In this document: piece after piece, positions 3,048 through 27,947 of the stretch
Position numbering within the stretch: position 1 is the stretch's first letter
Layout: the number at the start of each line of letters is the position of its first letter
Source of the DNA: Siphonodentalium dalli
Lineage: Eukaryota > Mollusca > Scaphopoda > Gadilida > Siphonodentaliidae
Direction of reading: 5' to 3'
Length of the DNA stretch: 64,000 nucleotides
Assembly: GCA_032622095.1 (NCBI GenBank)
Contig: CP136067.1
Span: 49,763,899 to 49,827,898 of the forward strand
Program-made: the position numbers and the translations under genes
The notes under the pieces: model-generated
Database searches by the model: none
What the model saw: only the letters and a program-made list of their open reading frames with translations
Told to the model about the DNA's origin: nothing

Positions 3048-3118
3048 CTCTGTGATGAATTAATCGTGACTGTCTTCCTATGACAAAATAGTGAAGATAT
3101 TAAGCGATTGCGGAGTAG
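3048..3118 (+). ncRNA. SNORD35: Degenerate box C/D snoRNA, U35-like copy 1
   Basis: Box C GTGATGA at 3052-3058 is followed by a guide that differs from the other copies by one base (GACTGTC in place of GACGGTC). The expected box D position reads CGGA (3111-3114), and the terminal stem is weak. It is the only copy outside intron 3 and is probably a decayed or very old paralogue. Confidence 0.55.
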
Positions 3119-3907: not shown

Positions 3908-3973
3908 GTATTGATGCTACCTCTAGTACACTGCCACTTTAGTTTCCAAGATTTGGGGTGGAAAATAATTAAC

Positions 3974-4344
3974 TAGGGCTGCAACGATTCATCATTAATT
4001 CAATGTATCACGATACACTTTCAAACGATATACGTATCGTGTCATGTGTATCGTGATACAGGAAATAAAGTAATGTCTGAAGATGGGCTAGTGTAAAAAA
4101 TCAAAACCTACAATTATCTCTCAAGTTTATATGTATACTATGTATATTTGACTCATCTAGCCAACAATTAAACTTCATTTTACTTTAAAATGAACTCTAC
4201 TCCAGTTATAAACTTGTTGTTTCTGATAATTCAGGCGGTATTTATTTGGAAACACTAATGTTGTGTATTGTGATACGTATCGTATCGTTGATCATGTGTC
4301 GTGATTCGTATCATATCGTGACCAAGTGTATTGTTGCAGCTCTA
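3974..4344. mobile_element. hAT-like miniature element
   Basis: Termini TAGGGCTGCAACGAT and, inverted, TAGAGCTGCAACAAT enclose several iterated GTATCGTGATAC-like palindromes. The termini match those of hAT-superfamily non-autonomous elements. The flanks (TAATTAAC and ATATTAAT) are only partly similar, so the 8-base target duplication is eroded. No transposase frame. Confidence 0.7.
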
Positions 4345-5017
4345 ATATTAATCTCTTCATTGCTTATGATATCGAGTGCTGGGCCGATGACGTTATGGCC
4401 ATTTTCCAGTTGAAAAATATAACGTGATTGTCACGAAAACCATGAAACTGACTCTGTTGAAAGGCTATTATCATTCACAATCATGGAACATCGTACACTG
4501 TTTGAAACTTCGAGAGACAGTTGTTTCGATGCACACATCTCTGAGTTTCAGTTATGAATAATGGCCAACTGCTAGTGTGCTGAAGTAGGTCCGTGCTCAG
4601 TACTGACGTATAGCACACAGCATGACATTTTACATCCATACTCAGTACTGACTTATAGCAGCCAAGAGGTTAATGGAATTGCATGTACTCACATGTGGCC
4701 TAATAAGTGATTGGTGGGGATTTAGGCTAAAATTAATAATATTGATTGCAATTTCACACTTGTCTCAATGCCAAATAATTGTGATCCTTGGGAATTTTCT
4801 CCAAAATTATTAATAAGGCCTAAAAAAAATATACGTTTGTTTCCGCTAACCCGACCGACCCTATTTTAAACCGCCGACTCTAAACTTTTTATTTTGAGAT
4901 TTTTTTTTTAAATATCTAAATCTCTATTATATTGGGAAGAAAACCAACATTGATATTTTTGTTGTTGGTAATTAAAACAAATTAGGCATAATTCCATTGT
5001 AATTTGTAATTATTATT
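4345..5017. other. Intron sequence without a gene
   Basis: No gene seen. A fragment of the short TCCGCTAAC/AGGCCTAAAAA repeat family lies at about 4808-4885, inverted relative to the copy at 11940-12035. Confidence 0.4.
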
Positions 5018-8000: not shown

Positions 8001-9427
8001 GCATGACTAAATCCTTTGGCCCGGGCTACAGGTCGTACCTTTGGTCTGATCTTTATGAAATTTGTCATGAATGTTGACATTGACATGTAGATGGGAACGA
8101 GTCATTTTGGGGTCATTCGGCCAAAAAACATGGCCGCTGGCAGCCATCTTGGATTTCAAGATTCAATCCATTGGCGCAGGCTACAGGTCGTACTGTTCGT
8201 CTGATCATCATGAAATTTGTCATTGATGTTAATAATGACATGTAGATGGGAACGAGTGATTTTGGGGTCGTTCGGCCAAAAAACATGGCCGCCAGCAGCC
8301 ATCTTGGATTTTACTCTTTGCATGACTAAATCCTTTGGCGCGGGCTACAGGTCGTTGTGTTGGTCGGAAGTTTATGAAATTTGTCATGGATGTTAACACT
8401 GACATGTAGATGGGAACGAGTGATTTTGGAGTCGTTCGGCCAAAAAACATGGCCGCCATCTTGGATTTTACTCTTTGCATGACTAAATCCTTTGGCGCGG
8501 GCTATAGGTTGCCTTTGGTCTAATCTTTATAAAATTTGTCATGAACGTTGACATTGACATGTAGATGGGAACGAATCATTGTCGGGTCATTCGGCCAAAA
8601 AACATGGCTGCTGGCGGCCATCTTGGATTTCAAAATTCAATCCATTGGCGCGGGCTACAGGTCGTACTGTTCGTCTGATCATCATGAAATTTGTCATGAA
8701 TGATAACAATGACATGTAGATGGGATCGAGTCGTTATGGGGTCATTTGGTCAAAAAACATGGCCGCCAGCAGCCATCTTGGATTTTACTCTTTGCATGAC
8801 TAAATCCTTTGGTGCGGGCTACAGGTCGTAGCTTTGGTCAAATGGTCATGAAATTTGTCATTAATTATAACAATGACATGTAGATGGGAACGAGTCGTTT
8901 TGGGGTCATTCGGTCAAAAAACATTGCCACCAGCATTTTACTTTTTGCATGACTAAATCCTTTGGCGTGGGCTACAGGTCATACCTTTGGTCTGATATTT
9001 ATTAAATTTGTCATGAATGTTGACATTGACATGTAGATGGGAACGAATCATTGTGGGGTCATTCGGCCAAAAAACATGGCTGCCAGCGGCCATCTTGGAT
9101 TTTAAAATTCAATCCATTGGCGCGGTCTACAGGTCGTACTGTTCGTCTGATCATCATGAAATTTGTATGTCGTAGCTTTGGTCAGATCTTCATAAAATTT
9201 GTCATGGATGTTAACAATTATACGTAGATGGGAACGAGTTCTTTTGGGGTCAATTGGCCAAAAAAAATGGCCACCAGCAGCCATCTTGTATTTTACTCTT
9301 TGCATCACTAAATCCTTTGGCGCATGTTAGACATTTCAATTAGCACCTTTCCTATTCCTCCATTTACTGTCAACCATTAAATTATTCCCCTACCTAAGTT
9401 GAGCTACAGTGTCATTGACACTTTCAT
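5018..9427 (+). mobile_element. Pearl/HINE-like element HINE-1 with tandem core
   Basis: The 5' end is a hairpin (AGCTCAACTTAC with TAAGTTTGAGCT, 5018-5044), then a CCGT/GTGT-rich microsatellite (5061-5108), about 26 core monomers of ~161 bp, and a 3' end with AAGTTGAGCT (9396-9405) followed by the palindrome AGTGTCATTGACACT (9408-9422). AAGTTGAGCT is the inverted complement of the 5' terminus. This layout is that of bivalve pearl elements and of Helentron-associated HINEs, non-autonomous rolling-circle elements. No protein is encoded; the recurring 73-codon minus-strand frames are a by-product of monomer length. Confidence 0.8.
5116..9330 (+). repeat. HINE-1 core: 161-bp monomers in 483- and 1449-bp higher-order units
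   Basis: The phrase GGGCTACAGGT recurs about every 161 bases. Related monomers recur every 483 bases, and the block starting near 5160 recurs almost unchanged 1449 bases later. For example 5331-5552 equals 6780-7001, and 6297-6518 equals 7746-7967. After about 8060 the copies diverge and lose regular spacing. The near identity of the 1449-base copies points to a recent unequal exchange inside the element. Confidence 0.85.
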
Positions 9428-10129
9428 TAATTAATTTGTTGGAATTACCGGCAGACGAGTGTGCAAGACATACTTCCGGTATCGTTTCGCTATGAAATTG
9501 TCAAAGCGTATGAAATAACTGCGGTACGTTTTTTCATTCAAAATTTATTTGAACTTTGACAAAACATATCTATATCCGAGAATGGGTTAATCCATTAGTT
9601 ATTGATGACTTCACCACTAGAATATTAATACATTAACTATTTAACCACAGCTTAACATTTATTTCTACGAACATTTCATATTGGTACGTTGAATAGTGTC
9701 AAATAATGTCATTATAATGAACAAGTTTCCCATTTTCGTGGTACATATACATCGTTTTTATCATAGTCATAATGGGCTTGATTCAGTGCAGCTTTAAACC
9801 TTCAGGTCTAACAAATATAGGGTTTCCACTTATCTAATTGAATTCAATTCAATTTTATTGAATTTAGAACAAATATTTTTTTAAAAGCAAACTTTTTTTC
9901 AAAGTTATTAATTTTTTTTTAGAAATTAGAAGCTCGGTGACTCACACCAATACACGTCCTCCAAAAGCCTCAGTAATTCATCTTAGAAGATTCCTCCTAG
10001 CTACTTAACTCAGCTTGGGCTATTGAGTTTTTGACAAATGTTCACAAACAGTCAGTTTCATATTTTTACCACAAAATTTTCCTAAAAATTCCACCACATA
10101 CTATTATTCCGCAGTCCGCACGTATGTTT
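9428..10129. other. Intron sequence without a gene
   Basis: AT-rich sequence; nothing recognised. Directly follows the HINE-1 terminus. Confidence 0.4.
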
Positions 10130-10299
10130 ATTGGGCACTCATGAGTGGTGTCGTATGCGCCGCATGCACCAGAATACGTCTGCAACCGCCCCCCCCCCCC
10201 CCACAATAATAATATACAGTATATATAAGCCCACCCACCACCCATAGTGTCTTATGCGCCAGTGGCTCTGGGAATATGCGCCGCAACCGCCCACAATAA

Positions 10300-10985
10300 T
10301 CTCCTATATATTTTGAGAACTACGTAAATATATGTGTATATTTGTCCTCTATAGACTCGAAAACGGCTGCACCGATTGGGCTCAAACTTCCCATCTAAGG
10401 ATAAAAACCCACGGGAATGGTCGTCGCGGCGTTTTGGAGAAGCTCAGAGCACCCATTCTCCACTCTGTTACAAAAAATGGCACTGTGGGGTTAACGCTCC
10501 TTATATCTTCCATATTTGGGTTCGTTAACCTGTTAACGCTCTTTATTCCCTTCGGCTTTCGCATATGGCTTTTGTTTACGTTATCGCTCGAAATGGAACT
10601 CGCTTCTGTGTGATTCTTACGTACTTAGGGCTTCCTAGGAACGGGGGACATTTTCATCGGGTCAGTTTTTCCGCCCGAGGTGATCTTCACCTTGAAACGG
10701 GTACCCACAAATGATATATATGTGTGTGTCCTTTATAGACTCGAACCGATTGAGCTCAAACTTGCTACCTACAGGAAGTGTCATGGACGGGTTAAATTGT
10801 GACCCCGACTTGACCTTGAAAATGATCAATTCAGGGTCAAATTGAAAAACAAAATTTAAAAAGCCAGTAAATTAAAAAGGCACAATTAACTAATTAAATT
10901 TAAAAATTAATTACAAAAATTAATTACAAAAATAAAAATTGTCATGTTTCTGACGATTGCCGCCAGTGGCGGGCTAACCTGCTAG
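10300..10985 (+). mobile_element. Non-autonomous Helitron
   Basis: It starts TCTCCTATATATTTTG after an A, and ends with a hairpin (GCCGCC, loop AGT, GGCGGGC) followed about 10 bases later by CTAG before a T. Helitrons start with TC, end with a hairpin plus CTRR, and insert between A and T; all are met here. The interior has the GACTCGAAAACGGCTGCACC phrase also found in the Helitrons at 40.6 and 52.4 kb, but is well diverged from them. Confidence 0.75.
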
Positions 10986-11101
10986 TAATATATAATGTAT
11001 CTTATGCGCCATAGAGTGTCTGCAACGGCCCACAATAATAATATATATAAGCGCCCGCCGACCATCCCATCCACCACACATAGTGTCTTATGCAGAATGC
11101 T

Positions 11102-11440
11102 AGTGACTTCGTCCCAAAATGGCGACCTCGTTCCGATTTTATGGGTGATCTCGTCCCAGTCGTCGGTGATGTCGTCCCAGTGTTGATAACAAAGTAAACA
11201 TACGTGTCACGTAAACTCTGGTCAACGTTTATACCCAAAACAGTGTAGTAAACAAGTCATGATATTAAATAATATATTTTATTTATGAAGTATCAGTTTA
11301 TACGATCTTAAATTAAAAACAACCACCGGGACGACATCACCGGGACGAGATCACCGACAAACGGCGACAAGTGGGACGAGGTCACCTCTTCGGGACAAAA
11401 ATTGGTGGGATGAGATCGCAGTGGGACGAAGTCACTGGTC
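11102..11440. mobile_element. Miniature inverted element built from iterated GTGAYNTCGTCCC motifs
   Basis: Terminal AGTGACTTCGTCCCA (11102-11116) is inverted at 11422-11436. Between the ends the 13-base motif GTGAYNTCGTCCC recurs several times in both orientations, inwards on the left and inverted on the right, around an AT-rich centre. CTTATGC lies on both sides and may be the target duplication. Confidence 0.65.
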
Positions 11441-11478
11441 ACCCTTATGCATCTGCGGCCCCGGGAATATGCACCGCA

Positions 11479-11700
11479 ACTGCCAACAATAATGTGGGGA
11501 GTTTGATGCAGAAGTGAAACCTGCGTTGCGGATATGTTATAAAACAGTATATATCTGACGATAAAACGTTATTGTCCCATTTTAGCTTTGTTATATCTCC
11601 TGCCAACAATAATGTGGGGAGTTTGACGCAGAAGTTAAACCTGCATTACGGAAATGTTATAAAACAGTTACCCCGATCTGTGCCAAATGCACTGCTTCCG
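11479..11700 (+). repeat. Two-copy direct repeat of about 121 bp
   Basis: GCCAACAATAATGTGGGGAG and the sequence after it (AAACCTGC, ATGTTATAAAACAGT) occur at about 11480 and again at about 11601 with a few substitutions. Confidence 0.7.
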
Positions 11701-12257
11701 GTTTGACCCCAGTTGTCGAAAGACCCTACGGGAAGTGAACGTTACAATAATTACAGTGTATATATATATCTGACTATAAAATGAAAGTTATTGTTCCATT
11801 TTAGCCTTGTTATATCTCCCTGAGATTGTGTTTTTGTTATATCTTTATGGGATAAGCAAATTAGCAATAATATGGCCTGTAATGTCTAAAATTTCCTTAA
11901 ATATGACACAGTGAATTGCATCCTGAAAAAATAAAAAGATAAAAGAAAAAAAAAAGATTTGCCTACCTACCTACCCAATTTTTTTTCAGTCCGTTAGCGG
12001 AAACAAACGTATAATTTTTTTAGGCCTAATCGTGCTGATTCTATTAGGCGCTGCACCTGTCAGTATTTAAGTTGTCTTGATCTAGTAAATGGAGAAAATG
12101 CTCTTACGTCTTCACAAATGGTAATCCGATAACAGTACCATGCAGCTGTAGCATATGCGTGTGATTTAACATATTTATACCAGTATTTATTAATACAGTT
12201 GGTTATTGGTGGGTGTTACTGCTTACCAGGATTACTAGTTACCAAGTCCTACTGTTT
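11701..12257. other. Intron sequence with repeat fragment
   Basis: No gene. About 11940-12035 is a member of the short family ending TCCGTTAGCGGAAACAAACG then AGGCCTAA. The remainder is unassigned. Confidence 0.4.
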
Positions 12258-12328
12258 GTTAGCTGATGAATTAATCGTGACGGTCTTCCTATATGTTATG
12301 AGGACATAAAACGATTACTGATAGCAAC
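12258..12328 (+). ncRNA. SNORD35: Box C/D snoRNA, U35-like copy 2
   Basis: TGATGA (12264-12269) and box D CTGA (12318-12321) frame the conserved guide TTAATCGTGACGGTCTTCC. The segment between the guide and box D (ATATGTTATGAGGACATAAA) differs from the tandem copies, with a C'-like ATGAGGA. The closing stem is weak. Its guide is intact, so it may be an older functional copy. Confidence 0.72.
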
Positions 12329-12388
12329 CAGTAAATATTTGGCATCTGTGGAAATAAGCCTAAATATAGTTATTTTTTTAATCATTAA

Positions 12389-12796
12389 AGGTACTCAATC
12401 CGATTCGCTTGTTCCCATATCATCAGATTCCAACAACAACCTTTTTTGAAATGCCGTTTCAGTTCAGAATCGATTAATTGCCCAAAAATAATGATAACCA
12501 CAGTCAACTATAGCATAAAATTTCACAAAACCTGTTATTTATCAACATTTGTTCAACGAAATCTGGCTTGTTTGTCAAATATCTGATACACAAAAGCCAC
12601 TTGATTTTAGAGTTATCCATCTTAATCTGCAATTTGGTCCGAGACCGTCTTATCATAGACTTTTTACCAGGCCACTAAAAAAAATAGATGATGAAAAATA
12701 ATAGATTTCAAAAATCGATATCGGATCACTGAGCTTTGATGGACGATTTCCTGGACTCGAATGAAATATTTTTTACCCCCGAACCCAAAAAAAAAA
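12389..12796 (+). mobile_element. TTAA-flanked foldback element, copy A (3' truncated)
   Basis: It begins AGGTACTCAATCCGATTCG directly after TTAA (12385-12388) and runs through CCAACAACAAC, GAGACCGTCTT and the GAGCTTTGATGG block, but stops at the A-rich run near 12796 without the inverted right terminus. It gives the uninterrupted sequence for the site where HINE-3 inserted in copy C. Confidence 0.7.
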
Positions 12797-13074
12797 GGCA
12801 TTTGCGAGCATTATAATTAATTCAGATTATGCATCTTTAAAAATTGCAATTGTTTGTGCCTTAAAATTGCCTTCATCATTTTCTAGGGAAAGATAACCTT
12901 CAATTATCACCGGCCCTGCTTTATTTTTCTAATTTCTGAGAACAATTATTTTTAATGGCCTAATTAATGGTGCTAGACATGGTGTCTGGCTCTTGAGTTG
13001 ATTCCCTTGGTCACTATCCCAAAATCCATATATGCCTTGCTACCATATAATATACAACACCAAGTGCAACATGC
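12797..13074. other. Intron sequence without a gene
   Basis: Nothing recognised. Confidence 0.35.
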
Positions 13075-13082
13075 ATGGTTTG

Positions 13083-13548
13083 TAGAGGTGCCACGACTAT
13101 TGATTTTGATAATCGGTCGTCAATAATCGAGTGCATTCAGTTCATTGAACACGGTGACAGTCGGCACATTTCAAAGACATATTGCCACCTTTCAAGTATA
13201 CTAAAATATACAACGATGTCGCAATGTGTTCAAATCTGCAGTGCGGCCAATTTGTTGAATATACAACGATCCGACGAGAAACCATGTCGCATCATCAAAT
13301 GAACTGCCGACTGTTTGCAACATATATCAGTAGTACTCATGTTATTGGAATCTCTTTGGTACGCGATCAAAGGATGTTAACACCTCGGTTGTAGATAGAA
13401 CTTTGTAAAATAAACACGGTATTCAATAATACCCGGCATCTTCTGACATCCGATATAAATAACACAGATTAATCGACGATGGAAATGGTAATCGATTATC
13501 GGCTTTATCAACGGTTCATCGATTATACGATTAATCGTGGCACCCCTA
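13083..13548. mobile_element. hAT miniature element with perfect 8-bp target duplication
   Basis: Termini TAGAGGTGCCACGA and inverted TAGGGGTGCCACGA are flanked by ATGGTTTG on both sides (13075-13082 and 13549-13556). TAGRGGTG termini with 8-base duplications are characteristic of hAT elements. No transposase frame in 466 bases. Confidence 0.88.
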
Positions 13549-13840
13549 ATGGTTTGTCTATCTCTTTCATAATTTGCTAGTAGCTCAGCTTATTAACACT
13601 TTAACTGAGCTATTTTATGGGTTTTCATAAATGATCGTTTATTCTATTTCTTGCATGCGGCCAACAACCACATTACTTTTATCAAAACTTCCGATACTTA
13701 GGGTGACTGTTAAGTCCAAAGAAAAAACAAAAAACATGGCTATTACAGCATGAATCATAAAAGAATCAGGACGAACAGGAACTTTTTATCCCGCATTGAT
13801 GTGGTACTAGTACCCAGACTGCTGAATATTTAATGGAATG

Positions 13841-13915
13841 GTTGTAACTGATGAATTAATCGTGACGGTCTTCCTAACTGTTATGAGGACATTGAAACGA
13901 TTACTGATAACAGCC
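13841..13915 (+). ncRNA. SNORD35: Box C/D snoRNA, U35-like copy 3
   Basis: TGATGA at 13849-13854, intact guide TTAATCGTGACGGTCTTCC, C'-like ATGAGGA, box D CTGA at 13904-13907. Flanks GGTTGT and ACAGCC can pair as a six-base closing stem with one G-U. It resembles copy 2 more than the tandem copies, so both predate the tandem amplification. Confidence 0.78.
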
Positions 13916-14332
13916 ACAGAATGCTATTTTTAGGGAAATAAGAAAATCAATTAATTTTGTTCATAAGTTATGTTTGCCCCTTCTTTCTACTTATGAACGA
14001 CATTAAGCGATCATAGAAAGAGATCGGCAGATATATATTGTTGATTTTAATTGGCTGATACTCATTACTGAGCAATCAATTGGTAATGCCATTGAACATG
14101 GATGTTGATTGTTTATTTTACTTCGCTACATGAACTATGACACCAATATATTATGCCAACACCTTGTGAAATTATGATTGATCTAATTGCTTGTTTTTCA
14201 AATTAGATAGAGCAATGGAGCATAATGACAGTTTTTGGCGCACCATGGATTATCATATCTCGTTGAAATTTGGTATGCTTGTTTGGCACCGGGAGGGCTT
14301 TCAAAAGAGGGTTCATTGACGTAGCCTTTGTC

Positions 14333-15399
14333 TAGAGCTGGGACGGTTATGGGTTTTTCGTGACCGGTTATGAACGGCAAAAAACCGCGATTAACCGGTT
14401 AACCGCATATTATAGGTATTATTATGGGTGTGTAAGCCCAGTATGCAGAACGGCGATGATTGTGATGCTCACTGACATGGTAAGTTTGAGAACGACTCCT
14501 GCCCATTATACAAAGAAGTTGTCACCCATGACACACATAATCACATACCGGTACTGTAAAAACATATTTTTCGTGTTCAGTGACAACGTAGACCTATGTG
14601 TTCCTACGTGTGGCCAAACACAAAGAACTGACCTCTTGGTTATGTAAACACACAGTGGGTATCATAATGGAGCAGAAGGGGGAACTTGTCAATTAACAAA
14701 AATGTCTTCCAAACTGCGTCAACTTTATTCACTCGAAACCAAAATATTCAAACACGTGCTTTTGTATACGTTTTTATACGTATACGTTTTAGCATTCGGC
14801 AAACCTCGTCAGATTCCATCACCGTTTGCCCCCAGAGGTCACAGGTCGAGGAGTTCAGAATGCCGTTTTAGTAGAAATACAACTGCCTTGTCAGTGCTGT
14901 TAAATAATTACACTCAATGGCTTTTGTTAAACATGCAATTAGTCGCCATGTATGTAGACAATGGATGACGAATAAAGCGCCGGGCTTATTGTTTTCCTAA
15001 TCAGTCCTAATCGAATTAAATCGGAACATTGATATAAACTATAGTCAGACTATAGATAACCCACATTGCCGCTTACATAATAACCAGGGCATTCCTGACT
15101 CCAAGCATACACTTTGGGAACAAGACGGCTGTCCTTTGATGTTTCGTTTTGACGTCGGCAGGCTGTGAAATGTAGCCTTCAATGAGCCGACACACCGCGT
15201 TTGATGTTGTTCCGTCAATCTCGGATTCATTTTAATTGACGGAGACAGATTAACCCTCTTATAGCCAGTTATAGCTGACCATCACAGTGATCATACACTA
15301 TAATAGTGATGTTACGGTTAACCGGCCACGGCAAATCCGTGACCGCTCACGGCCATAGTTGGTGGTTAACCGGTTAACCGCATAACCGTCCCAGCTCTA
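14333..15399. mobile_element. hAT non-autonomous element in the first snoRNA unit
   Basis: Termini TAGAGCTGGGACGGTTATG are inverted at both ends, with a perfect 8-base target duplication CCTTTGTC (14325-14332 and 15400-15407). The outer 40 bases of each end also carry inverted GGTTAACCGGTTAACC-type palindromes. Length is 1067 bases, with no transposase frame. Removing it restores the unit sequence GTAGCCTTTGTCTACATG seen in neighbours. Confidence 0.9.
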
Positions 15400-15479
15400 C
15401 CTTTGTCTACATGTTCGACTGAGTGATAGCTGGAATTTACATTGTATCCCCATCAACAGTCTAGTTGCCTTTTAAGAGT

Positions 15480-15550
15480 TGTCTCATGATGAGTTAATCG
15501 TGACGGTCTTCCTATACAAAACTGAGGATACTATACGATTGCTGAAGACA
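15480..15550 (+). ncRNA. SNORD35: Box C/D snoRNA, U35-like copy 4
   Basis: A small nucleolar RNA predicted to guide 2'-O-methylation of 28S rRNA. Box C ATGATGA (15486-15492) and box D CTGA (15542-15545) are closed by the stem TGTCT/AGACA (15480-15484 with 15546-15550). The guide after box C, TCGTGACGGTCT, can pair 12 bases (two G-U) with the universally conserved 28S segment AGACCGTCGTGA. Vertebrate U35 pairs with the same segment, and its paralogue SNORD35B is hosted by RPS11, so this is very probably the U35 homologue. A D'-like CTGA and C'-like GAGGATA lie in the middle. The second guide position (ACTATACGATTG upstream of box D) has no target I recognise. Confidence 0.85.
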
Positions 15551-16605
15551 GTTTCTTTTGTCTTGTTAAATCTATGCATTTTATAATTCATAATTTCTTG
15601 TAAAGCGATTTCTATAGTAAATCATTCTCATGGTGTCAAGCCTGCCTACCCCCTCCCCCTTTAGGATATTGTTACCAATATATCGCTGATGTACAACATG
15701 AATATGGATGATGGAAAGTATTGTTTTTCACCGAGTTAATCCCCTTTCTTGACTTAGAGAGTCAACTTCCTATTCAAGATAACCATCTATTATCGGGGGA
15801 ATTGTGGTCGCGACCTTTTATTGAGATTATATTTAAGTTTGGTGTTATGATCCACTGGTCAGCATATTTCTAGAAGGTCTTCGAACTCTTTGCAATTTCA
15901 TAGAAGTTAGACCAGAAAACACAATTAATGTTTTTACATTATGATTAAGTAATGTAGATTTCAGTTATAATCAGTAAACAGGATGATAGAACTAAGAGGA
16001 GATTGGATCCTACAAGTTTCCAGAAAATAAAGAGCAATGATGACACAATTGTCTCGTTCGACTGAGTTCAATGATTACAAATCATCGGAATCTTCTGAGC
16101 TCTTTCTGTTGTTAACTCATTCACTGCTGAGTGGTTTCTCCCATTCAGGTCTCGCAGATTACACTGGATTGTTCTATTTATCATTTAATGGGATGTTCTG
16201 ATGTATACAAGCACACAGGCAGAGAAAAACCCAAGGGATGCCCATATCATGCTCAACATTTGTATAGTGGATTACATGCATCCGTCCGTTCATATATCTC
16301 AACCATGGGTTATCGGATCTCAATGTAAATTGGTTTGCAGGTTTGGCATCAGGAGGGCTTTCAAAAGAGGGTTTATTGACATTCATATTTTCCATTCAAT
16401 AGTCATTTAATATCACTCTTTGTTCTTCTGAAAATGTTGGATTTCCGCTAATCATGGGTTATCGGATCTCGATGAAATATGGTATGCATGTTTGGCTGGC
16501 ACCAGGACGTCTATCATTGACATAACATTTGTCTACCTGGTCGACTGAGTGATGGCTGAAATCTACATTGTATCCCCATCAACAGTATGGTTCCCTTTTA
16601 AGAGT

Positions 16606-16678
16606 TGTCATATGATGAGTTAATCGTGACGGTCTTCCTATACAAAACTGTGAGGATACTATACGATTGCTGAAGACA
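16606..16678 (+). ncRNA. SNORD35: Box C/D snoRNA, U35-like copy 5
   Basis: Box C ATGATGA (to 16618), intact guide, box D CTGA 16670-16673, stem TGTC/GACA. It has the CTGTGAGGATACT centre typical of the tandem copies. Confidence 0.84.
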
Positions 16679-17729
16679 GTTTCTTTTGTCTTGTTAAAAC
16701 TATGCATTCTATAATTCATAATTCTTTGTAAATCAATTCCTATAGTAATTTAGTAAATCATTCTCATGGTGTCAAGCCTACCTACCCCGTCACCCTTTAG
16801 GATATTGTTATCAATATATTGCTGATGAACAATATGTTTATTCATGACGGAAAGTATTGTTTTTCACAGAGTTATTCCCCTTTCTTGATTTAGAAAGTCA
16901 ACCTCATATTAATTATAACCATCTATTTTCGTGGGAATTGTGGTCGGCGCCCTTTTGTTGAGATTATATTTAAGTTTGGTGTTATGATCCACAGGTCAGC
17001 ATATTTCTAGACGGTCTTCGAACACTTTGCAAATGCGTAGAACAGAAAAAACAATGTTTTTACATTATGATTAAGTAATGTAGATTTCAGTTATAATCAG
17101 TAAATAGGATGATAGAACTGAGAGGAGATTGAATTCTACAAATTTCCAGAAAAGAAAGAGCAATGATGACACAATTGTCTCGTTCGACTGAGTTCAATGA
17201 TTACAAATCATCGGAATCTTCTGAGCTCTTTCTGTTAACTCATTCACTGCTGAATGGTTTCTCCCATTCTGGTCTCGCAGATTACACTGGATTGTTCTAT
17301 TTATCATTTAATGGGATGTTCTGATGGATACAAGTACACAGGCAGAGAAAAACCCAAGGTGCCCATATCATGCTCAACATTTTTATAGTGGATTACATGC
17401 ATCCGTCCGTTCATATATCTCAACCGTGGGTTATCGGATCTCAATGTAAATTGGTTTGCAGGTTTGGCATCAGGAGGGCTTTCAAAAGAGGGTTTATTGA
17501 CATTCATATTTTCTGTTCAACAGAGTTATTTAATATCATTCTTTGTTCTTCTGAAAAGGTTGGATTTCCGCTAAATCATGGGTTATCGGATCTCAATTAA
17601 ATTTGGTATGCATGTTTGGCTGGCACCAGGACGTCTATCATTGACATAACATTTGTCTACCTGGTCGACTGAGTGATGGCTGAAATCTACATTGTACCCC
17701 CATCAACAGTCTGGTTCCCTTTTAAGAGT

Positions 17730-17802
17730 TGTCATATGATGAGTTAATCGTGACGGTCTTCCTATACAAAACTGTGAGGATACTATACGATTGCTGAAGA
17801 CA
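17730..17802 (+). ncRNA. SNORD35: Box C/D snoRNA, U35-like copy 6
   Basis: TGATGA 17737-17742, intact guide, box D CTGA 17794-17797, stem TGTC/GACA. Core identical to copy 5. Confidence 0.84.
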
Positions 17803-18455
17803 AGTTTCTTTTGTCTTGTTAAAACTATGCATTCTATAATTCATAATTCCTTGTAAAGCAATTCCTATAGTAATTTAGTAAATCATTCTCATGGTGTCAA
17901 GCCTACCTACCCCGTCACCCTTTAGGATATTGTTATCAATATATTGCTGATGTACAGCATGTTTATGGATGACGGAAAGTATTGTTTTTCAGAGTTATTC
18001 CCCTTTCTTGATTAGAAAGTCAACCTCATATTAATTATAACCATCTATTTTCGTGGGAATTGTGGTCGGCGCCCTTTTGTTGAGATTATATTTAAGTTTG
18101 GTGTTATGATCCACAGGTCAGCCTATTTCTAGACGGTCTTCGAACTCTTTGCAAATGCATAGAACAGAAAAAAACAATTAATGTTTTTACATTATGATTA
18201 AGTACGGTAATGTAGATTTCAGTTATAATACAGTAAATAGGATGATGGAACTAAGAGGAGATTGGATTCTACATATTTCCAGAAAAAAAAAGAGCAATGA
18301 TGAACCAATTATCTCGTTAACCTGACTTCAATGATAACAAATCAAAATCTTCTGAGCTCTTTCTGTTGTTAACTCATGAATGGTTTCTCCCATTCAGGTT
18401 CTCACAGATTACACTGGATTGTTCTATTTATCATTTAATGGGATGTTCTCATGGA

Positions 18456-18713
18456 TTGACTGTTTTTCATAATATTACACTTCATTTTCGACTTATTTTG
18501 ACTTAGAAAATTCTGTCTGACTTAATAGCTTTAACAAATATGAACCAATTTGAATAATTTTTTCTGTACAAGTTTTTTGTGACACCATATCGATATTATT
18601 AGTCCGAAGTTTTCTTTAAAGTTAAAAATCTTTTTTGTTGGGTTTACGGATAATGCGGGTTGAATTTGCCACGGTGGGGGTATGCTAGCACTCGAGTGCA
18701 CACCTCTTGTTAT
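18456..18713. repeat. Foreign segment replacing part of a snoRNA unit
   Basis: The unit reads normally to GGGATGTTCTCATGGATTG, then continues with unrelated AT-rich sequence ending GAGTGCACACCTCTTG, and rejoins the unit at TTATCAATATATTGCTG. The lost part would have carried a snoRNA. The end resembles CACGCCCAGCGTAGCTCTTG at 28.65 kb, suggesting a truncated element of that family. Confidence 0.55.
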
Positions 18714-19630
18714 CAATATATTGCTGATGTACAACATGTTTATGGATGATGGAAAGTATTGTTTTTCAGAGTTATTCCCCTTTCTTGATTAGAAAGTCAA
18801 CCTCATATTAATTATAACTATCTATTTTCATTGGAATTGTTGTCGGCACCCTTTTGTTGAAATTATATTTAAGTTTGGTGTTATGATCCACAGGTCAGCT
18901 TATTTCTAGACTAGACGGTCTTCGAACTCTTTGCAAATGTAATGTTTTTACATTATGATTAAGGAATGTAGATTTCAGTTATAATACAGTAAATAGGATG
19001 ATAGAACTAAGAGGAGATTGGATCCTACAAATTTCCAGAAAAGAAAGAGCAATGATGACACAATTGTCTCGTTCGACTGAGTTCAATGATTACAAATCAT
19101 CGGAATCTTCTGAGCTCTTTCTGTTAACTCATTCATTGCTGAATGGTTTCTCCCATTCAGGTCTCGCAGATTACACTGGATTGTTCTATTTATCATTTAA
19201 TGGGATGTTCTGATGGATACAAGCACACAGGCAGAGAAAAACCCAATGGATGCCCATATCAATATGATATCATGCTCAACATTTTTATAGTTGATTACAT
19301 GCATCCGTTCGTTCATATATCTCAACCATGGGTTATCGGATCTCAATGTAAATTGGTTTGCAGGTTTGGCATCAGGAGGGCTTTCAAAAGAGGGTTTATT
19401 GACACTCATATTTTCCGTTCAATAGAGTTATTTAATATCACTCTTTGTTCTTCTGAAAATGTTGGATTTCCGCAAATCATGGGTTATCGGATCTCGATGA
19501 AATTTGGTATGCATGTTTGGCTGGCACCAGGACGTCTATCATTGACATAACATTTGTCTACCTGGTCGACTGAGTGATGGCTGAAATCTACATTGTATCC
19601 CCATCAACAGTCTGGTTCCCTTTTAAGAGT

Positions 19631-19703
19631 TGTCATATGATGAGTTAATCGTGACGGTCTTCCTATACAAAACTGTGAGGATACTATACGATTGCTGAAG
19701 ACA
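19631..19703 (+). ncRNA. SNORD35: Box C/D snoRNA, U35-like copy 7
   Basis: TGATGA 19638-19643, intact guide, box D CTGA 19695-19698, stem TGTC/GACA. Core identical to copy 6. Confidence 0.84.
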
Positions 19704-20760
19704 AGTTTCTTTTGTCTTGTTAAAACTATGCATTCTATAATTCATAATTCCTTGTAAAGCAATTCCTATAGTAATTTAGTAAATCATTCTCATGGTGTCA
19801 AGCCTACCTACCCCGTCACCCTTTAGGATATTGTTATCAATATATTGCTGATGTACAGCATGTTTATGGATGACGGAAAGTATTGTTTTTCACAGAGTTA
19901 TTCCCCTTTCTTGATTAGAAAGTCAACCTCATATTAATTATAACCATCTATTTTCGTGGGAATTGTGGTCGGCGCCCTTTTGTTGAGATTATATTTAAGT
20001 TTGGTGTTATGATCCACAGGTCAGCCTATTTCTAGACGGTCTTCGAACTCTTTGCAAATGCATAGAACAGAAAAAAACAATTAATGTTTTTACATTATGA
20101 TTAAGTACGGTAATGTAGATTTCAGTTATAATACAGTAAATAGGATGATGGAACTAAGAGGAGATTGGATTCTACAAATTTCCAGAAAAAAAAGAGCAAT
20201 GATGAACCAATTATCTCGTTAACCTGAGTTCAATGATAACAAATCAAAATCTTCTGAGCTCTTTCTGTTGTTAACTCATGAATGGTTTCTCCCATTCAGG
20301 TTCTCACAGATTACACTGGATTGTTCTATTTATCATTTAATGGGATGTTCTGATGGATACAAGCACACAGGCAGAGAAAAACCCAATGGATGCCCGTATC
20401 ATGCTCAACATTTTTATAGTTTATTACATGCATCCGTCCGTTCATATATCTCAACCATGGGTTATCGGATCTCAATGTAAATTGGTTTGCAGGTTTGGCA
20501 TCTGGAGGTCTTTCAAAAGAGGGTTTATTGACATTCATATTTTCCGTTCAATAGAGTTATTTAATATCACTCTTTGTTCTTCTGAAAATGTTGGATTTCC
20601 GCTAAATCATGGGTTATCAGATCTCGATGAAATATGGTATGCATGTTTGGCTGGCACCAGGACGTCTATCATTGACATAACATTTGTCTACATGGTCGAC
20701 TGAGTGATGGCTGAAATCTACATTGTATCCCCATCAACAGTATGGTTGCCTTTTAAGAGT

Positions 20761-20833
20761 TGTCATATGATGAGTTAATCGTGACGGTCTTCCTATACAA
20801 AACTGTGAGGATACTATACGATTGCCGAAGAGA
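20761..20833 (+). ncRNA. SNORD35: Box C/D snoRNA, U35-like copy 8, box D mutated
   Basis: TGATGA 20768-20773 and the guide are intact. Box D reads CCGA (20825-20828) in place of CTGA, and the 3' half of the stem is changed (AGAGAG). Box D is required for 15.5K/NOP58 binding and stability, so this copy is probably dead. Confidence 0.6.
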
Positions 20834-21727
20834 GTTTCTTTTGTCTTGTTAAAACTATGCATTCTATAATTCATAATTCCTTGTAAAGCAATTCCTATAG
20901 TAATTTAGTATATCATTCTCATGGTGTCAAGCCTACCTACCCGTCACCCTTTAGGATATTGTTATCAATATATTGTTGATGTACAACATGTTTATGGATG
21001 AACTCTTTGCAAATGCATAGAACAGAAAATAACAATTAATGTTTGTACATTATGATTAAGTAATGTAGATTTCAGTTATAATACAGTAAATAGGATGATA
21101 GAGCTAAGAGGAGATTGAATTCTACAAATTTCCACACAAAAAAGAGCAATGATGACCCAATTATCTCGTTAACCTGAGTTCAATGATAACAAATCAAAAT
21201 CTTCTGAGCTCTTTCTGTTGTTAACTCATGAATGGTTTCTCCCATTCGGGTTCTCACAGATTACACTGGATTGTTCTATTTATCATTTAATGGGATGTTC
21301 TCATGGATACAAGCACACAGGCAGAGAAAAACCCCAATTGATGCCCATATATCATGCTCAAATCATGCTCAACATTTTTATAGTGGATACATGCGTCCGT
21401 CCGTTCATATATCTCAACCACGGGTTATCGGATCTCAATGTTGTTGGTTTGCAGGTTTGGCATCAGGAGGGCTTTCATAAGAGGGTTTATTGACATTCAT
21501 ATTTTCCGTTCAATAGAGTTATTTAATATCACTCTTTGTTCTTCTGAAAATGTTGGATTTCCGCTAAATCATGGGTTATCGGATCTCGATGAAATTTGGT
21601 ATGCATGTTTGGCTGGCACCAGGACGTCTATCATTGACATAACATTTGTCTACCTGGTCGACTGAGTGATGGCTGAAATCTACATTGTATCCCCATCAAC
21701 AGTATGGTTCCCTTTTAAGAGTTGTGA

Positions 21728-22259
21728 CAGGGATTTTTCTGCCTATTTTGGGAATGGGTTCGGGTCCCTTCGAATTGGGAAAAATGTGTCTTTACAGACC
21801 AAAATTGGGAATTTTCCATGTTTTTGAAAAATTCAATTAATCACTGTTACACACATGTAAATAGTACTAATTCCGTAATTTTCGGGTGTATAACGCGACT
21901 GTACACGTGTTTTATATAAATCAGAAATTTATTTAGAGGTATCTTCCCTCTTTCATAAATGCGCTGACTGGTAGAGGGGAGGTAATTTGCATGTTAAGCT
22001 AATAGTTAGGTTGCTGCATGTACATTATACAATGCGGGCTCCCGATATCGCTGATTTATTACGGGTTTTCAGCCGCTTATCGATCGACTGAGTGTACAAA
22101 ACATCAGAATAATTTATAATTATTCAATAAACCTGATGGTAATATATACCTGCCTGCAATTGGGAATTTGGTGGTTAAAAATTGGGAATGAAGGAGCATT
22201 TTTCCCATTGGGAATGGGGCCGAATACCGGACCCTGAGGACACCTAAAAAAAATCCCTG
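21728..22259. mobile_element. hAT-like miniature element abutting a snoRNA
   Basis: Termini CAGGGATTTTT and AAAATCCCTG are inverted, of hAT type. The insertion lies between the unit sequence AAGAGTTGT and the snoRNA at 22260, touching its closing stem. No clean 8-base duplication is visible (left GTTGTGA, right TGTCACAT). Interior unidentified. Confidence 0.65.
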
Positions 22260-22332
22260 TGTCACATGATGAGTTAATCGTGACGGTCTTCCTATACAAA
22301 ACTGTGAGGACACTATACGATTGCTGAAGACA
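22260..22332 (+). ncRNA. SNORD35: Box C/D snoRNA, U35-like copy 9
   Basis: TGATGA 22267-22272, intact guide, box D CTGA 22324-22327, stem TGTC/GACA. GAGGACACT replaces GAGGATACT in the centre. A transposon ends at its first base, which may affect 5' flanking pairing. Confidence 0.82.
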
Positions 22333-23400
22333 GTTTCTTTTGTCTTGTTAAGTTTCTTTTGTCTTGTTAAAACTATGCATTCTATAATTCATAATTCTTT
22401 GTAAATCAATTCCTATAGTAATTTAGTAAATCATTCTCATGGTGTCAAGCCTACCTACCCCGTCACCCTTTAGGATATTGTTATCAATATATTGCTGATG
22501 AACAATATGTTTATGGATGACGGAAAGTATTGTTTTTCACAGAGTTATTCCCCTTTCTTGATTTAGAAAGTCAACCTCATATTAATTATAACCATCTATT
22601 TTCGTGGGAATTGTGGTCGGCGCCCTTTTGTTGAGATTATATTTAAGTTTGGTGTTATGATCCACAGGTCAGCATATTTCTAGACGGTCTTCGAACACTT
22701 TGCAAATGCATAGAACAGAAAAAACAATGTTTTTACATTATGATTAAGTAATGTAGATTTCAGTTGTAATCAGTAAATAGGATCATAGAACTGAGAGGAG
22801 ATTGAATTCTACAAATTTCCAGAAAAGAAAGAGCAATGATGACACAATTGTCTCGTTCGACTGAGTTCAATGATTACAAATCATCGGAATCTTCTGAGCT
22901 CTTTCTGTTGTTAACTCATGAATGGTTTCTCCCATTCGGGTTCTCACAGATTACACTGGATTGTTCTATTTATCCTTTAATGGGATGTTCTGATGGATAC
23001 ATGCACACAGGCAGAGAAAAACCCAAGGGATGCCCATATCATACTCAACATCTTTATAGTTGATTACATGCATCTGTCCGTTCATATATCTCAACCATGG
23101 GTTATCGGATCTCAATGTAAATTGGTTTGCAGGTTTGACATCAGGAGGGCTTTCAAAAGAGGGTTTATTGACATTCATATTTTCCGTTCAATAGAGTTAT
23201 TTAATATCACTCTTTGTTCTTCTGAAAATGTTGGATTTCCGCTAAATCATGGGTTATCGGATCTCGATGAAATTTGGTATGCATGTTTGGCTGGCACCAG
23301 GACGTCTTTCATTGACATAACATTTGTCTACCTGGTCGACTGAGTAATGGCTGAAATCTACATTGTATCCCCATCAACAGTATGGTTCCCTTTTAAGAGT

Positions 23401-23471
23401 TGTCATATGATGAGTTAATCGTGACGGTCTTCCTATACAAAACTGAGGATACTATACGATTGCTGAAGACA
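23401..23471 (+). ncRNA. SNORD35: Box C/D snoRNA, U35-like copy 10
   Basis: TGATGA 23408-23413, intact guide, D'-like CTGA as in copy 4, box D CTGA 23463-23466, stem TGTC/GACA. Confidence 0.84.
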
Positions 23472-24100
23472 AGTTTCTTTTGTCTTGTTAAAACTATGCA
23501 TTCTGTAATTCATAATTCCTTGTAAAGCAATTCCTATAGCAATTTAGTATATCATTCTCATGGTGTAAAGCCTACCTACCCCGTCACCCTTTAGGATATT
23601 GTTATCAATATATTGCTGATGTACAACATGTTTATGGATGACGGAAAGTATTGTTTTTCTGAGTTATTCCCCTTTCTTGATTTAGAAAGTCAACCTCGTA
23701 TTAATTATAACCATGTGTTTTCGTGGGAATTGTGGTCGGCGACCTTTTATTGAGATTATATTTAAGTTTGGTTTTATGATCCACAGGTCAGCCTATTTCT
23801 AGACGGTCTTCGACCCTTTGCAAATGCATAGAACAGAAAAAAAACAATTAATGTTTTTACATTATGATTAAGTAATGTAGATTTCAGTTATAATACAGTA
23901 AATAGGATGATAGAACTAAGAGGAGATTGGATTCTACAAATTTCCAGAAAAAATGAGCAATGATGAACCAATTGTCTCGTTCGACTGAGTTCAATGATTA
24001 CAAATCATCGGAATCTTCTGAGCTCTTTCTGTTAACTCATTCACTGCTGAATGGTTTCTCCCATTCAGGTCTCACAGATTACACTGGATTGTTCTATTTA

Positions 24101-25165
24101 GGCCAAAGCGAAAAATAGGTGTGTTTCCACTCCCATCCATAAAAAAAACAGGGGGGGGGGGGTGGCTTTTCACTTTATTTATTTTTTTTCACTTTATTCT
24201 TTCGCGGGGAAATTTAAATATCATATTTGTGCTATCTTTCTAATAATTATGTCATTTATGAACTTATTGTGAAGGCTAACAATGTATGTACTGAATTTCA
24301 GTGTCTTGTATTTAATCTACATGTGCAAATTGTACATATGTTCATTAATATTCAATAAAACAACTAGTTTCAATATTTACAACAGTGTAGAATAACTTTC
24401 CACATAATTAGGCGTCAAGGCCTTTGGGGTGATTCTTTTCATAGACTTGAAAAAAGGTGTTGCAGTGGGGAACCTTTGTCATTTTGTTTCTGCCTTGCGC
24501 CATGTGTATGCATTTAAAAAACTTAAGTGCCAACACGCTGCTGGCACTTGTTTGGGACGACATGTTGACACTATTTCCCGGATGTTGGCAAAATTGTTTT
24601 AGATCTTCCGGTAAATATACACTCCGGCTTCCGTTCGGTAAATTACCGTAGGCCTATATCATCCGGTTGTTACAGTCCGTTCTTTTCAGACACCGTTGGA
24701 AGTTTTGGGACAGATGTATTCTTTGCGATTGCATTCGCGTAAATATTGTGTAGCATTATTTTGCCGGTATATTTGGGCATGTCGTTAGTTGACGTACATT
24801 AATAATGCGGTCATAAACTCATCACCCTAATGCCGCCATGGAGCTTCATTTTACAGTGTGTCTGAAAACCACGTGCGCGTTTGTTTTTGTTTATAATCTG
24901 TTGCTCTATCGGTCACAACACGGAATTTTATTGTCAGTGGGTCGATTTAATAACCAAATAAGGAGACAATTTTAGTATGCTTGTTTATGTGAGAGGTCTA
25001 TATATAACAATATAAATAGTGTAGTATTAATTCACGTGGAAATAGTAAATACATCGTATTTTATTTTTCGGGATTTGGAAAATAAATAAAGTGAGTTTCG
25101 TCGGGGGGGGTTTTGAGGTGGGGCGGGCGGGGGGAGTGGAAACATGCCTATTTTTCGCTTTGGCC
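24101..25165. mobile_element. PIF/Harbinger-like non-autonomous element
   Basis: Terminal inverted repeats of about 35 bases (outer GGCCAAAGCGAAAAATAGG, two or three mismatches further in) are flanked by TTA on both sides (24098-24100 and 25166-25168). A 3-base TTA duplication and GG-rich termini fit PIF/Harbinger. Removing it restores CTATTTATCATTTAATGGG of the unit. Long G runs lie just inside each end. No transposase frame in 1065 bases. Confidence 0.8.
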
Positions 25166-25455
25166 TTATCATTTAATGGGATGTTCTGATGGATACAAGC
25201 ACACAGGCAGAGAAACACCCAATGGATGCCCATATCATGCACAACATTTTTATACCTTCATCCAAAAGATTGGAGGAAAACTGGATTACATCTGTCTGTC
25301 TGTCCGCTCATATATCCCAACCCAATGAAGTTTGGTATTCAGGAGGGCTTTCAAAAGAGGGTTCATTGACGTAGCGTTTGTCTACCTGTTTTCACTGAGT
25401 GGTGGTTGAAATCTACATTGTATCCCCATAAACAGTCTGGTTGCCTATGAAGAGT

Positions 25456-25539
25456 TGTCACATGATGACTCATTGATGAGTTAATCATGACAGTCTTCCT
25501 ATACAAAACTGTGAGGACACTATACGATTGCTGAAGACA
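25456..25539 (+). ncRNA. SNORD35: Box C/D snoRNA, U35-like copy 11, guide mutated
   Basis: TGATGA 25474-25479 and box D CTGA 25531-25534 are present, but the guide carries two changes (ATCATGACAGTC for ATCGTGACGGTC) that weaken pairing with 28S. A second box C-like CATGATGA 12 bases upstream lengthens the 5' end. Last copy of the array, probably non-functional or of shifted specificity. Confidence 0.6.
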
Positions 25540-25560
25540 GTTTCTTTTGTCTGGTTACAG

Positions 25561-27308
25561 GCCTTTAAATCCATCAAAATTTGCGAGAATCAATTAATAG
25601 CATTTATGTAGCTAATCAGCTGCTTTTACAAGAATCAAACTGAGAATCAAGAATCTGATTCTGATGAAGGGGTGGGGCTGCAGTTTGAAATCTTGCTAGA
25701 ACACTCTTATTCACCAGGACCTCTTCTGTACATCCCTAACCAATCGTAGACATGTGAAAATAGACCTTTCCCAGACAATATAGAGGGCTTTGGTTGCATA
25801 AATCTAATTGGTTAGCTCTAGATTTTTCAGGTCTCGTTTGAATTATACTGATAAAACACCCCATTGTAACGTACCGGTATACTAGAACAATATTTCATGT
25901 ATGTTGAGATTAGTAAATCAGCACCCTGCTTGATTGCGCTAATTTCTAAATTCTATTTAATCTTATAATCATCGGCTGTGGTTCTGTTTATTACGCATCT
26001 CATACAGTACTTACTTCACTGGCTTTATAACTGTTTAAATTCTGACAGTGGAAGATTTCGGATATAGTGACAGAGGCTGCTGGAAACTATAGCTAGACCT
26101 ACTGTACATCAAGTGTAGGCACAATCGGATACATACATGTATGTGGCTTGTTTACCTATGCATGCAAGTTCATTTCCCTGACAATGTTGTACAAATGTGT
26201 TTATATACATGAACATAAATTCATTTATCATGTACAATTTTAGTCCACCAAAATCGGGTTATATAATGCCGAAATGTGTTATAAAGCTACTACGAGATAA
26301 CTCGTAGTTGGCACCTGGGACGGAATTTACCTGTGGCCAATGCTGGTGCCAGCTACGAGTTATCTCGCAGGTAAATACATATTACGTTTTTGATGTCTTG
26401 GTGACGTAGAGTGTACCAGTGATTATATATAAATTCATTTACTGTGTCTTATACATATGTCTGATAAATTCCGTCTCAGTTGCAGACTACGAGTTATCTC
26501 ATAGTGGCCTTACGACTTATGTCTCCGCATCATGTAAACCGATATTGGTCGAACCGTCACTTATCCATACATAAAGTTTCAACTACTATCGGCAAAACAT
26601 GCAATCCCATGTTATTGTACGGAATGGAATTACCCATTGGTTTTCGGCAGTGAACGTGATAAGCCCGGTTAAAACTATGCAGTCTATTATGGTAAATCAT
26701 TATGTTCTGATGGATACAAGCCCACAGGCAGAGAAAAACCCAATGTACATGTATGCCCATTCATCACTCGATCTAACATATTCTACAAATTTGGCTGTTA
26801 GTTGAATATTTAGTTTTATCTGTTGAGTTATGGATTGTGACCTCATCTTTAGAGATTCTAAGTAATTCTGACTAATATTTGCGCTTCGACCGGTACTGTA
26901 TATTTGCGCTTTGACCGGTAGTACAGGCAAAACTTTTGTCAAATACAACTTAAAAGGTACATGTTACATGTTTGATTATAAGGAACAAGAGTATTGACAC
27001 TTTGTCCATTGTGTGAGCTTATCTGCCATAGCTTCCAAATCAAATTATCAGTATCAATTATCCTAAGCAGGAGTTACTTGTTACTATACAATGTACCTGT
27101 ATTCTATATGAGAGCAATGATGAAACACGTGTCTCGTTCGACTGAGATCAGTGATTACAACTTTATTCGGAAAATTCTGAGCTCTTATTTACACCAAATT
27201 TTATATCATAGAAATTTTAGAAAACAACTCTTTTCTTGCATAGTATGGCGTTAATAGAACTATACTATATACCATTGTAGCCCCTCAGTCACTTGAGTGT
27301 TGGGGGGG
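25561..27308. other. Intron sequence without a gene
   Basis: No gene seen. CTACGAGTTATCTCG-type inverted phrases recur at about 26290, 26350 and 26490. A fragment of the snoRNA unit (GGATACAAGCCCACAGGCAG, about 26705) and another near 27115 (GAGCAATGATGAAACACGTG) are present without a snoRNA. Confidence 0.45.
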
Positions 27309-27394
27309 GGGATGCCACATTCCTAATCACTCCATTGACTGTAACACATGAAATTATTCCCTTTCCAAATTGAGTGTCATTGACACTTTCATTA
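27309..27394 (+). mobile_element. HINE 3' end fragment
   Basis: CACTCCATTGACTGTAACAC, ATTATTCCCTTTCCAAATTG and TGTCATTGACACTTTCATT match the 3' tail of the HINE elements at 9.4 and 34.9 kb. The element body is missing. Confidence 0.7.
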
Positions 27395-27655
27395 GTGACC
27401 CCAGTAAACAGTCGACAAGAAGACGGTCTCGGACCAAATTGTGGATGAAGATGGATAACCCAAAAATCAAGTGGCTTTTTTGTGTCAGATAGTTGACAAA
27501 CCGGGAAAATTTCATTTTGGGCAATTTTATACTAGAGTTGACTGTGGTTAGCATTATTTTGGGCAATTAGTCGATTCTGATAACTGAAGCGGTATTTAAA
27601 AATGTTGTTGTTGGAATTTGATGATATGGGGACCATCGAATCGGATTGAGAACCT
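27395..27655 (-). mobile_element. TTAA-flanked foldback element, copy B (truncated)
   Basis: On the minus strand it begins AGGTTCTCAATCCGATTCG after TTAA (27656-27659) and runs through CCAACAACAAC and GAGACCGTCTTCTTG to the junction with the HINE fragment. The right half is absent, so the HINE probably inserted into this copy. Confidence 0.7.
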
Positions 27656-27767
27656 TTAACTGTGAAACATTATGATCTGATCTCAAGAAGTCCATATTTA
27701 TATGGAATAACCTCATAACCGTGTGAGGATCATTATAGTTATTTAACATGCTCTTCTTTATTTACAG

Positions 27768-27891
27768 GGACGTGATACCTGGAGATATTGTTACAGTCGG
27801 AGAATGTAGACCACTGAGCAAGACTGTACGATACAATGTACTCAAGGTGGTGAAGCCAGGAGGCAAAACGAAGAGCTTCAGCAAATTCTAA
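27768..27891 (+). CDS. RPS11: RPS11 (uS17) exon 4 and stop
   Basis: Last exon, 124 bases after the acceptor TTTACAG. Its first base completes the split arginine codon; it then encodes [20 protein letters not shown] and ends with a basic tail KSFSKF before TAA (27889-27891). The [15 protein letters not shown] segment is diagnostic of uS17. The reading frame from exons 2 and 3 is kept exactly. Confidence 0.97.
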
Positions 27892-27918: not shown

Positions 27919-27947
27919 AATTAAAAAACATCTACTGTCCTATTTTT

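Follow-up and report, generated by a model that had tools for sequence, protein, structure and literature searches.

A tandem array of box C/D snoRNA elements in one RPS11 intron of the scaphopod Siphonodentalium dalli

We analysed a 64,000-nucleotide stretch of the Siphonodentalium dalli genome, hereafter the window, that carries the ribosomal protein gene RPS11. Intron 3 of this gene holds 19 elements of the box C/D small nucleolar RNA (snoRNA) type, damaged copies included: ten of U35 type and nine of U30 type, the two types mostly alternating. Our preferred reading, to which we assign a probability of about 0.77, is that the intron is an intronic box C/D snoRNA array in which a U35+U30 segment was tandemly duplicated and whose RNAs would guide methylation of ribosomal RNA (rRNA). 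The window lies on contig C7, and the genome searched comprised 2.23 Gb in 9 contigs.

Box C/D elements of RPS11

The U35-type guide TTAATCGTGACGGTCTTCC was found, allowing up to 3 mismatches, at 11 places in the window, all on the plus strand and 9 of them exact, compared with 0 in 100 shuffles. One place is in intron 2 (3060) and ten are in intron 3 (12271-25499). A sequence model built from 13 U35-type elements recovers exactly these 13 in 111,001 bases (11 in the window and 2 on contig C5), and the two approaches agree on the ten-plus-one count of the original prediction. All 11 window copies have TGATGA, and 9 have CTGA. The guide pairs over 12 bp with the animal's own 28S rRNA (11 Watson-Crick pairs and one G-U) in 9 of 11 copies; the others have 1 and 2 mismatches. 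Eight copies combine C box, D box, closing stem and the 12-bp guide match (12271, 13856, 15494, 16620, 17744, 19645, 22274 and 23415), which is the upper end of the six to eight good copies first estimated, and the duplex is identical in all eight. Two of them carry CTGATGA in place of an RTGATGA C box. Three further copies (3060, 20775 and 25481) look damaged. The U35-type elements are as follows; coordinates of the good copies run from the C box to the D box.

3053..3114, plus strand: in intron 2; damaged, with D box CGGA and one mismatch in the guide
12264..12321, plus strand: good, C box CTGATGA, flanks diverged from the array
13849..13907, plus strand: good, C box CTGATGA, flanks diverged from the array
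15487..15545, plus strand: good
16613..16673, plus strand: good
17737..17797, plus strand: good
19638..19698, plus strand: good
20768..20828, plus strand: damaged (D box CCGA, inner stem broken)
22267..22327, plus strand: good, 4-bp stem
23408..23466, plus strand: good
25474..25534, plus strand: damaged (two guide mismatches, weak stem)

The 28S fragment used for pairing is a 1118-nt 3' piece on C5 (8524-9641 of the locus read). Non-rRNA sequence with a run of A lies shortly before its start, as though an insertion had interrupted the gene. The target of the U35-type guide in it is AGACCGTCGCGA, and a guide G pairs Watson-Crick at the tenth place, where human 28S has T. The pairing length of 12 bases given in the original prediction therefore stands, and its two G-U pairs reduce to one. 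Counted back from the putative D' box, the fifth nucleotide lies opposite a 28S C, probably the cytosine modified by U35. In Neurospora, 26S-Cm2917 is given as the snR73/U35 site (PMC2780460). Shuffled U35 bodies reached a best score of at least 10 against the 28S fragment (the observed score is 10) in 7 of 200 trials. Because pairing length alone is thus no proof, the assignment rests on the known site and the register.

Nine U30-type elements lie among or after the U35 copies, with ATGATGA, CTGA and a GAGC/GCTC stem. Their boxes are intact in all nine, and closing stems range from 4 to 9 bp. In six of them the canonical guide GTCTCGTTCG precedes D' and is complementary over 10 bp to human 18S CGAACGAGAC; this pairing was computed for the copies at 17156 and 27110, and the same letters occur in all six. 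The name U30, the 18S target and the register are putative assignments. The animal's own 18S was not found in the assembly, short fragments apart. In the remaining three copies (18290, 20192 and 21142) the D' guide is altered and 3 nt are deleted close to box D; their boxes and 7-bp stems are intact.

16030..16104, plus strand: canonical guide GTCTCGTTCG
17156..17230, plus strand: canonical guide, 9-bp closing stem
18290..18361, plus strand: variant, changed guides
19045..19119, plus strand: canonical guide
20192..20263, plus strand: variant, changed guides
21142..21213, plus strand: variant, changed guides
22829..22903, plus strand: canonical guide
23953..24027, plus strand: canonical guide, 4-bp stem
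27110..27186, plus strand: canonical guide in a diverged single copy, whose D box lies 587 nt upstream of the acceptor

These nine had been missed, and with them the set reaches 27186, beyond the cluster as first drawn. A generic C/D scan demanding a 5-bp stem returned 9 candidates in intron 3, corresponding to 8 of the 9 U30-type and 1 of the 10 U35-type elements. The scan found none on the minus strand of intron 3 and none in 27768-64000; shuffles gave a mean of 0.06 and at most 1.

The U35 copies of the array are spaced 1124-1141 nt apart across whole units (4 intervals) and 1499-2066 nt apart across broken or fused ones (3 intervals). The ~1.13-kb unit proposed earlier does recur, but it consists of a U35+U30 pair rather than U35 alone. 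Its extent and its scattered parts are as follows.

15399..24100, plus strand: principal run of tandem U35+U30 units of ~1.13 kb, some whole and some broken
14242-14320, 25166-25557 and 26702-26746, plus strand: smaller unit fragments
17384..17640, plus strand: stretch of unit spacer forming part of a dispersed repeat (at least 83 matches, with 40 of 1881 candidates scored and the array's own included)

The elements at 3060, 12271, 13856 and 27110 align with the unit over the snoRNA only, and for this reason we take them to be older. The guide is kept letter for letter at 12271 and 13856 despite flanks that no longer align, as is the U30 guide at 27110.

The host gene has the following parts in the window.

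2818..2946, plus strand: RPS11 exon 2
3702..3907, plus strand: RPS11 exon 3
3908..27767, plus strand: RPS11 intron 3, 23,860 nt, GT-AG
27768..27891, plus strand: RPS11 last exon, stop TAA at 27889-27891

Intron 2, which joins exons 2 and 3, is 755 nt long and also GT-AG. Exons 2, 3 and the last exon are 84, 74 and 53% identical to human RPS11. No match to exon 1 was found with two patterns tried over ~8.8 kb upstream. Genome-wide matches to RPS11 at E 0.001 are these three exons only, indicating one RPS11 gene. RPS11 is upheld as the host, and chicken U35 likewise lies in RPS11, in intron 4 (PMC2653536).

Pieces of the 3' part of the array also occur on another chromosome, within C5:208089633-208093132, with 2 U30-type and 2 U35-type elements, one of the latter having the exact 19-nt guide. 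Among the matches listed there is no RPS11 exon, and no host gene was seen among the open frames at the C5 copy. At a distance of 2.3 kb before this copy is a 677-nt stretch with 94% identity to 27943-28599, the sequence immediately 3' of the last exon of RPS11. Within the window, the ~1.07-kb stretch 14333-15399 looks like a later transposon insertion because it splits a unit fragment, has inverted ends, is bordered on each side by an 8-base repeat and does not occur in the C5 copy. It appears to be hAT-like. It is 96% identical to a stretch in an RPL7A intron, and its two ends are 97-98% identical to sequence in the RPL13A region, placing one transposon family in three snoRNA-host genes.

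Satellite-like tandem repeats of ~164 bp, similar to one another, occur at 5114-9166, 32844-34749, 35554-37021 and 42202-43037 of the window, both within RPS11 intron 3 and outside the gene. In intron 2, positions 3464-3609 of the minus strand form a long hairpin with a weak match to a microRNA model, MIR831 (33.6 against 100 bits); it is probably an inverted repeat.

Sequence conservation and arrays in other host genes

Diversity within the array was measured with the older copies and the C5 copies excluded. Over seven U35 copies it is 0.0097 from C to D (0.0094 with the whole D box), 0 in the guide and 0.047 in the spacers. U30 bodies have diversities of 0.013 among the 5 canonical and 0.023 among the 3 variant array copies, both below the spacer value.

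We then compared two further snoRNA hosts. On contig C1, RPL13A (C1:218665001-218735000) has 13 SNORD33-type and 7 SNORD34-type elements, many in tandem units of ~0.5-1 kb. The 13 SNORD33-family matches lie in a 17-kb intron, 8 of them at or above the gathering score; the 7 SNORD34 matches lie in the two largest introns seen, with 4 at or above it. SNORD33 types A and B mostly alternate in ~1-kb units. Across 11 of the 13 SNORD33-type elements (two outlying ones were dropped), the five type-A copies have a body diversity of 0.006 against 0.055 in their flanks, and the six type-B bodies have 0.000 against 0.025, 0.038 or 0.098, depending on the stretch. Pooled, the bodies of both types give 0.027. 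Bodies are thus conserved relative to flanks in both RPS11 and RPL13A. The SNORD33-type D guide pairs over 13 bp, with two or three G-U, with human 18S.

RPL7A, on contig C9, spans 47 kb, and the sequence covered was 9,925 nt of one 19.8-kb intron (C9:163598001-163607925) together with exon neighbourhoods. In this part SNORD24 matches at six places, three of which reach the gathering score; both SNORD36 matches reach it as well, whereas the four SNORD2-like matches stay below it. SNORD24 and the SNORD2-like element are repeated in ~2.8-kb units, the long unit matches being 87, 88 and 96% identical and the shorter ones 73-80%. RPS11 and both further hosts read show arrays, in a comparison that had no non-host ribosomal protein gene as a control. 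Amplification is not confined to U35, because U30 is paired with U35 in the RPS11 unit and because RPL13A and RPL7A are amplified in the same style. Exon matches to RPL4 occur at C5:202636706-202664405, with gaps of up to 13.5 kb between them.

A single mobile element spreading the arrays was considered and rejected, as a comparison of the RPS11 unit with the RPL13A region at E 1e-5 gave no shared sequence. The U35 guide was likewise sought, with up to 2 mismatches on both strands, in the 70,000 nt of RPL13A and 9,925 nt of RPL7A and was not found.

Several observations weigh against our preferred reading. The U35-type D' box is a poor CCTA, though the register fits. The Rfam covariance search to which the original prediction had looked did not place the elements: nothing in the window reached a gathering score, no SNORD35 row appeared up to E 10 in 1-30000, and the nearest family for the U35-type elements is nematode sn3071 (37.3 against a gathering score of 40 bits). 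The Rfam snoU30 model hits the three variant copies only, at no more than 29.5 against 45 bits, and is outscored by SNORD103, at up to 31.4 against 45 bits and so below gathering. The U30-type pairing was scored on human 18S only. In the one unit examined there is no strong hairpin between the snoRNAs, only a weak 12-nt inverted repeat. All 8 array U30 bodies, when pooled, vary more than the spacers (0.076 against 0.047), and among 60-nt windows of the unit one in the spacer (0.017) matches the low value of the window that holds U35 (0.018). Because of this last result, conservation within the array is by itself weak evidence, and selection is better indicated by the old copies, whose guide is unchanged although their flanks have diverged.

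These data bear on the strongest alternative, to which we would give somewhat under even odds: that the array is a neutral by-product of recombination in a large, repeat-rich genome, with one or two working copies and the rest decaying passengers. Damage in 3 of 11 U35 copies, changed guides in 3 of 9 U30 copies, broken units, the dispersed repeat in the spacer and the satellite repeats in the intron all speak for it. Eight U35 copies nevertheless retain guide, boxes and stem, six RPL13A type-B bodies are identical while their flanks differ by 2.5-9.8%, and RPL13A and RPL7A show the same pattern.

Predicted processing and targets

Under the array reading, an ancestral intron would have contained guides of U35 and U30 type. 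The segment holding both would then have been duplicated in tandem, presumably by unequal recombination, to give the ten U35-type and nine U30-type elements. If transcribed, they would most likely bind box C/D proteins while still part of the RPS11 pre-mRNA. The U35-type RNAs would target the cytosine of 28S AGA[C]CGTCGCGA for 2'-O-methylation, consistent with the guide-target pairing proposed originally and found here with the animal's own 28S, and the U30-type RNAs would do the same for the adenosine of 18S CGA[A]CGAGAC.

In the usual route (PMC11028025), a debranched intron is trimmed from both ends down to the small nucleolar ribonucleoprotein (snoRNP). With 19 elements in one intron, such trimming would free the outer ends only, and the inner copies would need internal cuts or splicing-independent processing. 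Without internal cuts, RNAs resembling snoRNA-related long noncoding RNAs (sno-lncRNAs) would arise. It is unlikely, in our estimate, that these are the main product, that is, long RNAs ended and studded by snoRNPs, with exonucleases halting at the outermost snoRNPs and few mature copies released. Two snoRNAs per intron can yield sno-lncRNAs (PMC11028025), and the unit examined has ~500-nt spacers in which the weak inverted repeat is the only such feature besides the U30 stem; some intronic snoRNAs, however, are made without splicing (PMC11028025).

Since end trimming frees only outer ends, copy number may not become dose. A gain in dose, and any selection for it, would not be automatic, and several snoRNAs per intron, a recognized difficulty for processing, need not mean a high yield. 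This step from copy number to dose is the weakest in the argument of the original prediction, which proposed that one ribosomal protein gene could set an unusually high dose of one guide.

The variant U30-type copies raise a narrower and still less likely possibility, namely that they were retargeted, losing the 18S guide and gaining a 28S match. The 3-nt deletion and nearby changes create AAATCAAAATC, an 11-bp perfect match to the animal's own 28S GATTTTGATTT in box-D register. All 11 pairs are Watson-Crick and fall 3-13 nt upstream of box D, as computed for the 18290 copy, with which the other two agree in sequence there. Shuffles reached 11 or more in 6 of 2000 trials against the 1118-nt fragment. 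The predicted site of such a guide would be the uridine in 28S GA[U]UUUGAUUU. The variants represent one shared event, however, and the match is A/T-rich. Only the 3' part of 28S was compared, so that the chance over all rRNA is several times higher, and two C5 relatives are in a half-way state. We regard the 28S match as suggestive only. An assembly artefact, to which tandem repeats are prone, is very improbable here given that unit copies differ from one unit by ~5-10% plus indels.

Comparison with known snoRNA systems

The wider pattern across genes is the interesting part of these results. Conserved rRNA guides in known hosts appear to be multiplied within single introns of three ribosomal protein genes in one animal. 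Speculatively, giant introns of ribosomal protein genes may act as snoRNA factories, in which the resident guides (U35/U30 in RPS11, U33/U34 in RPL13A and U24 in RPL7A) were multiplied separately, with many guides per transcript, dose coupled to ribosomal protein output and spare copies gaining rRNA targets; we put the chance of this at a little over one in five. If the copies are made, the arrays would offer a natural setting in which to ask whether rRNA methylation is limited by guide dose, how many snoRNPs can come out of a single intron and how guides acquire new targets.

The U35-type elements share their antisense core and predicted 28S cytosine with SNORD35A/B (U35; yeast snR73) and with nematode sn3071 (RF01166), which has GACGGTCTTCC in common with them. 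RPS11 hosts U35 in human as well. The elements described here differ from SNORD35 and sn3071 in occurring ten times within one intron and once in a second, and in their poor D' box and scores below Rfam gathering. The likeness of the U30-type elements to SNORD30 would lie in the guide next to D', whose 10-bp pairing is with human 18S CGAACGAGAC. Human SNORD30 is hosted by SNHG1/UHG, whereas here the host is RPS11, nine copies sit among U35 elements, and the Rfam snoU30 matches are weak and limited to the variants.

In gas5-like hotspots and intronic snoRNA clusters, too, several snoRNAs share an intron or a host. Copies of the gas5-like kind are spread over different introns (PMC2653536), whereas here one unit is amplified within one intron. 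The arrays also inform on the stability of host-guide links: those for U35, U33/U34 and U24 hold in this animal, whereas in sponges SNORD24 sits in RPL5. Sponges also show an H/ACA snoRNA duplicated into a neighbouring RPL13A intron (PMC3412847). Among the papers listed, a partial set judged mostly by titles and the beginnings of abstracts, there was no report of rRNA-guide arrays in single ribosomal protein introns. A review (PMC11028025) states that animals predominantly have one snoRNA per intron, that large snoRNA tandem repeats are eutherian orphan families and that understudied genomes might harbour new tandem repeats. SNORD113/114, SNORD115/116 and rat Bsr are likewise large local tandem box C/D families with subfamilies. 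They are orphan families in repeated introns of long noncoding RNAs, eutherian in the first two pairs, which are imprinted, and rat in the case of Bsr (PMC11028025). In contrast to these families, the elements here are of rRNA-guide type, lie many to a single intron and reside in protein-coding ribosomal protein genes of a non-mammalian animal.

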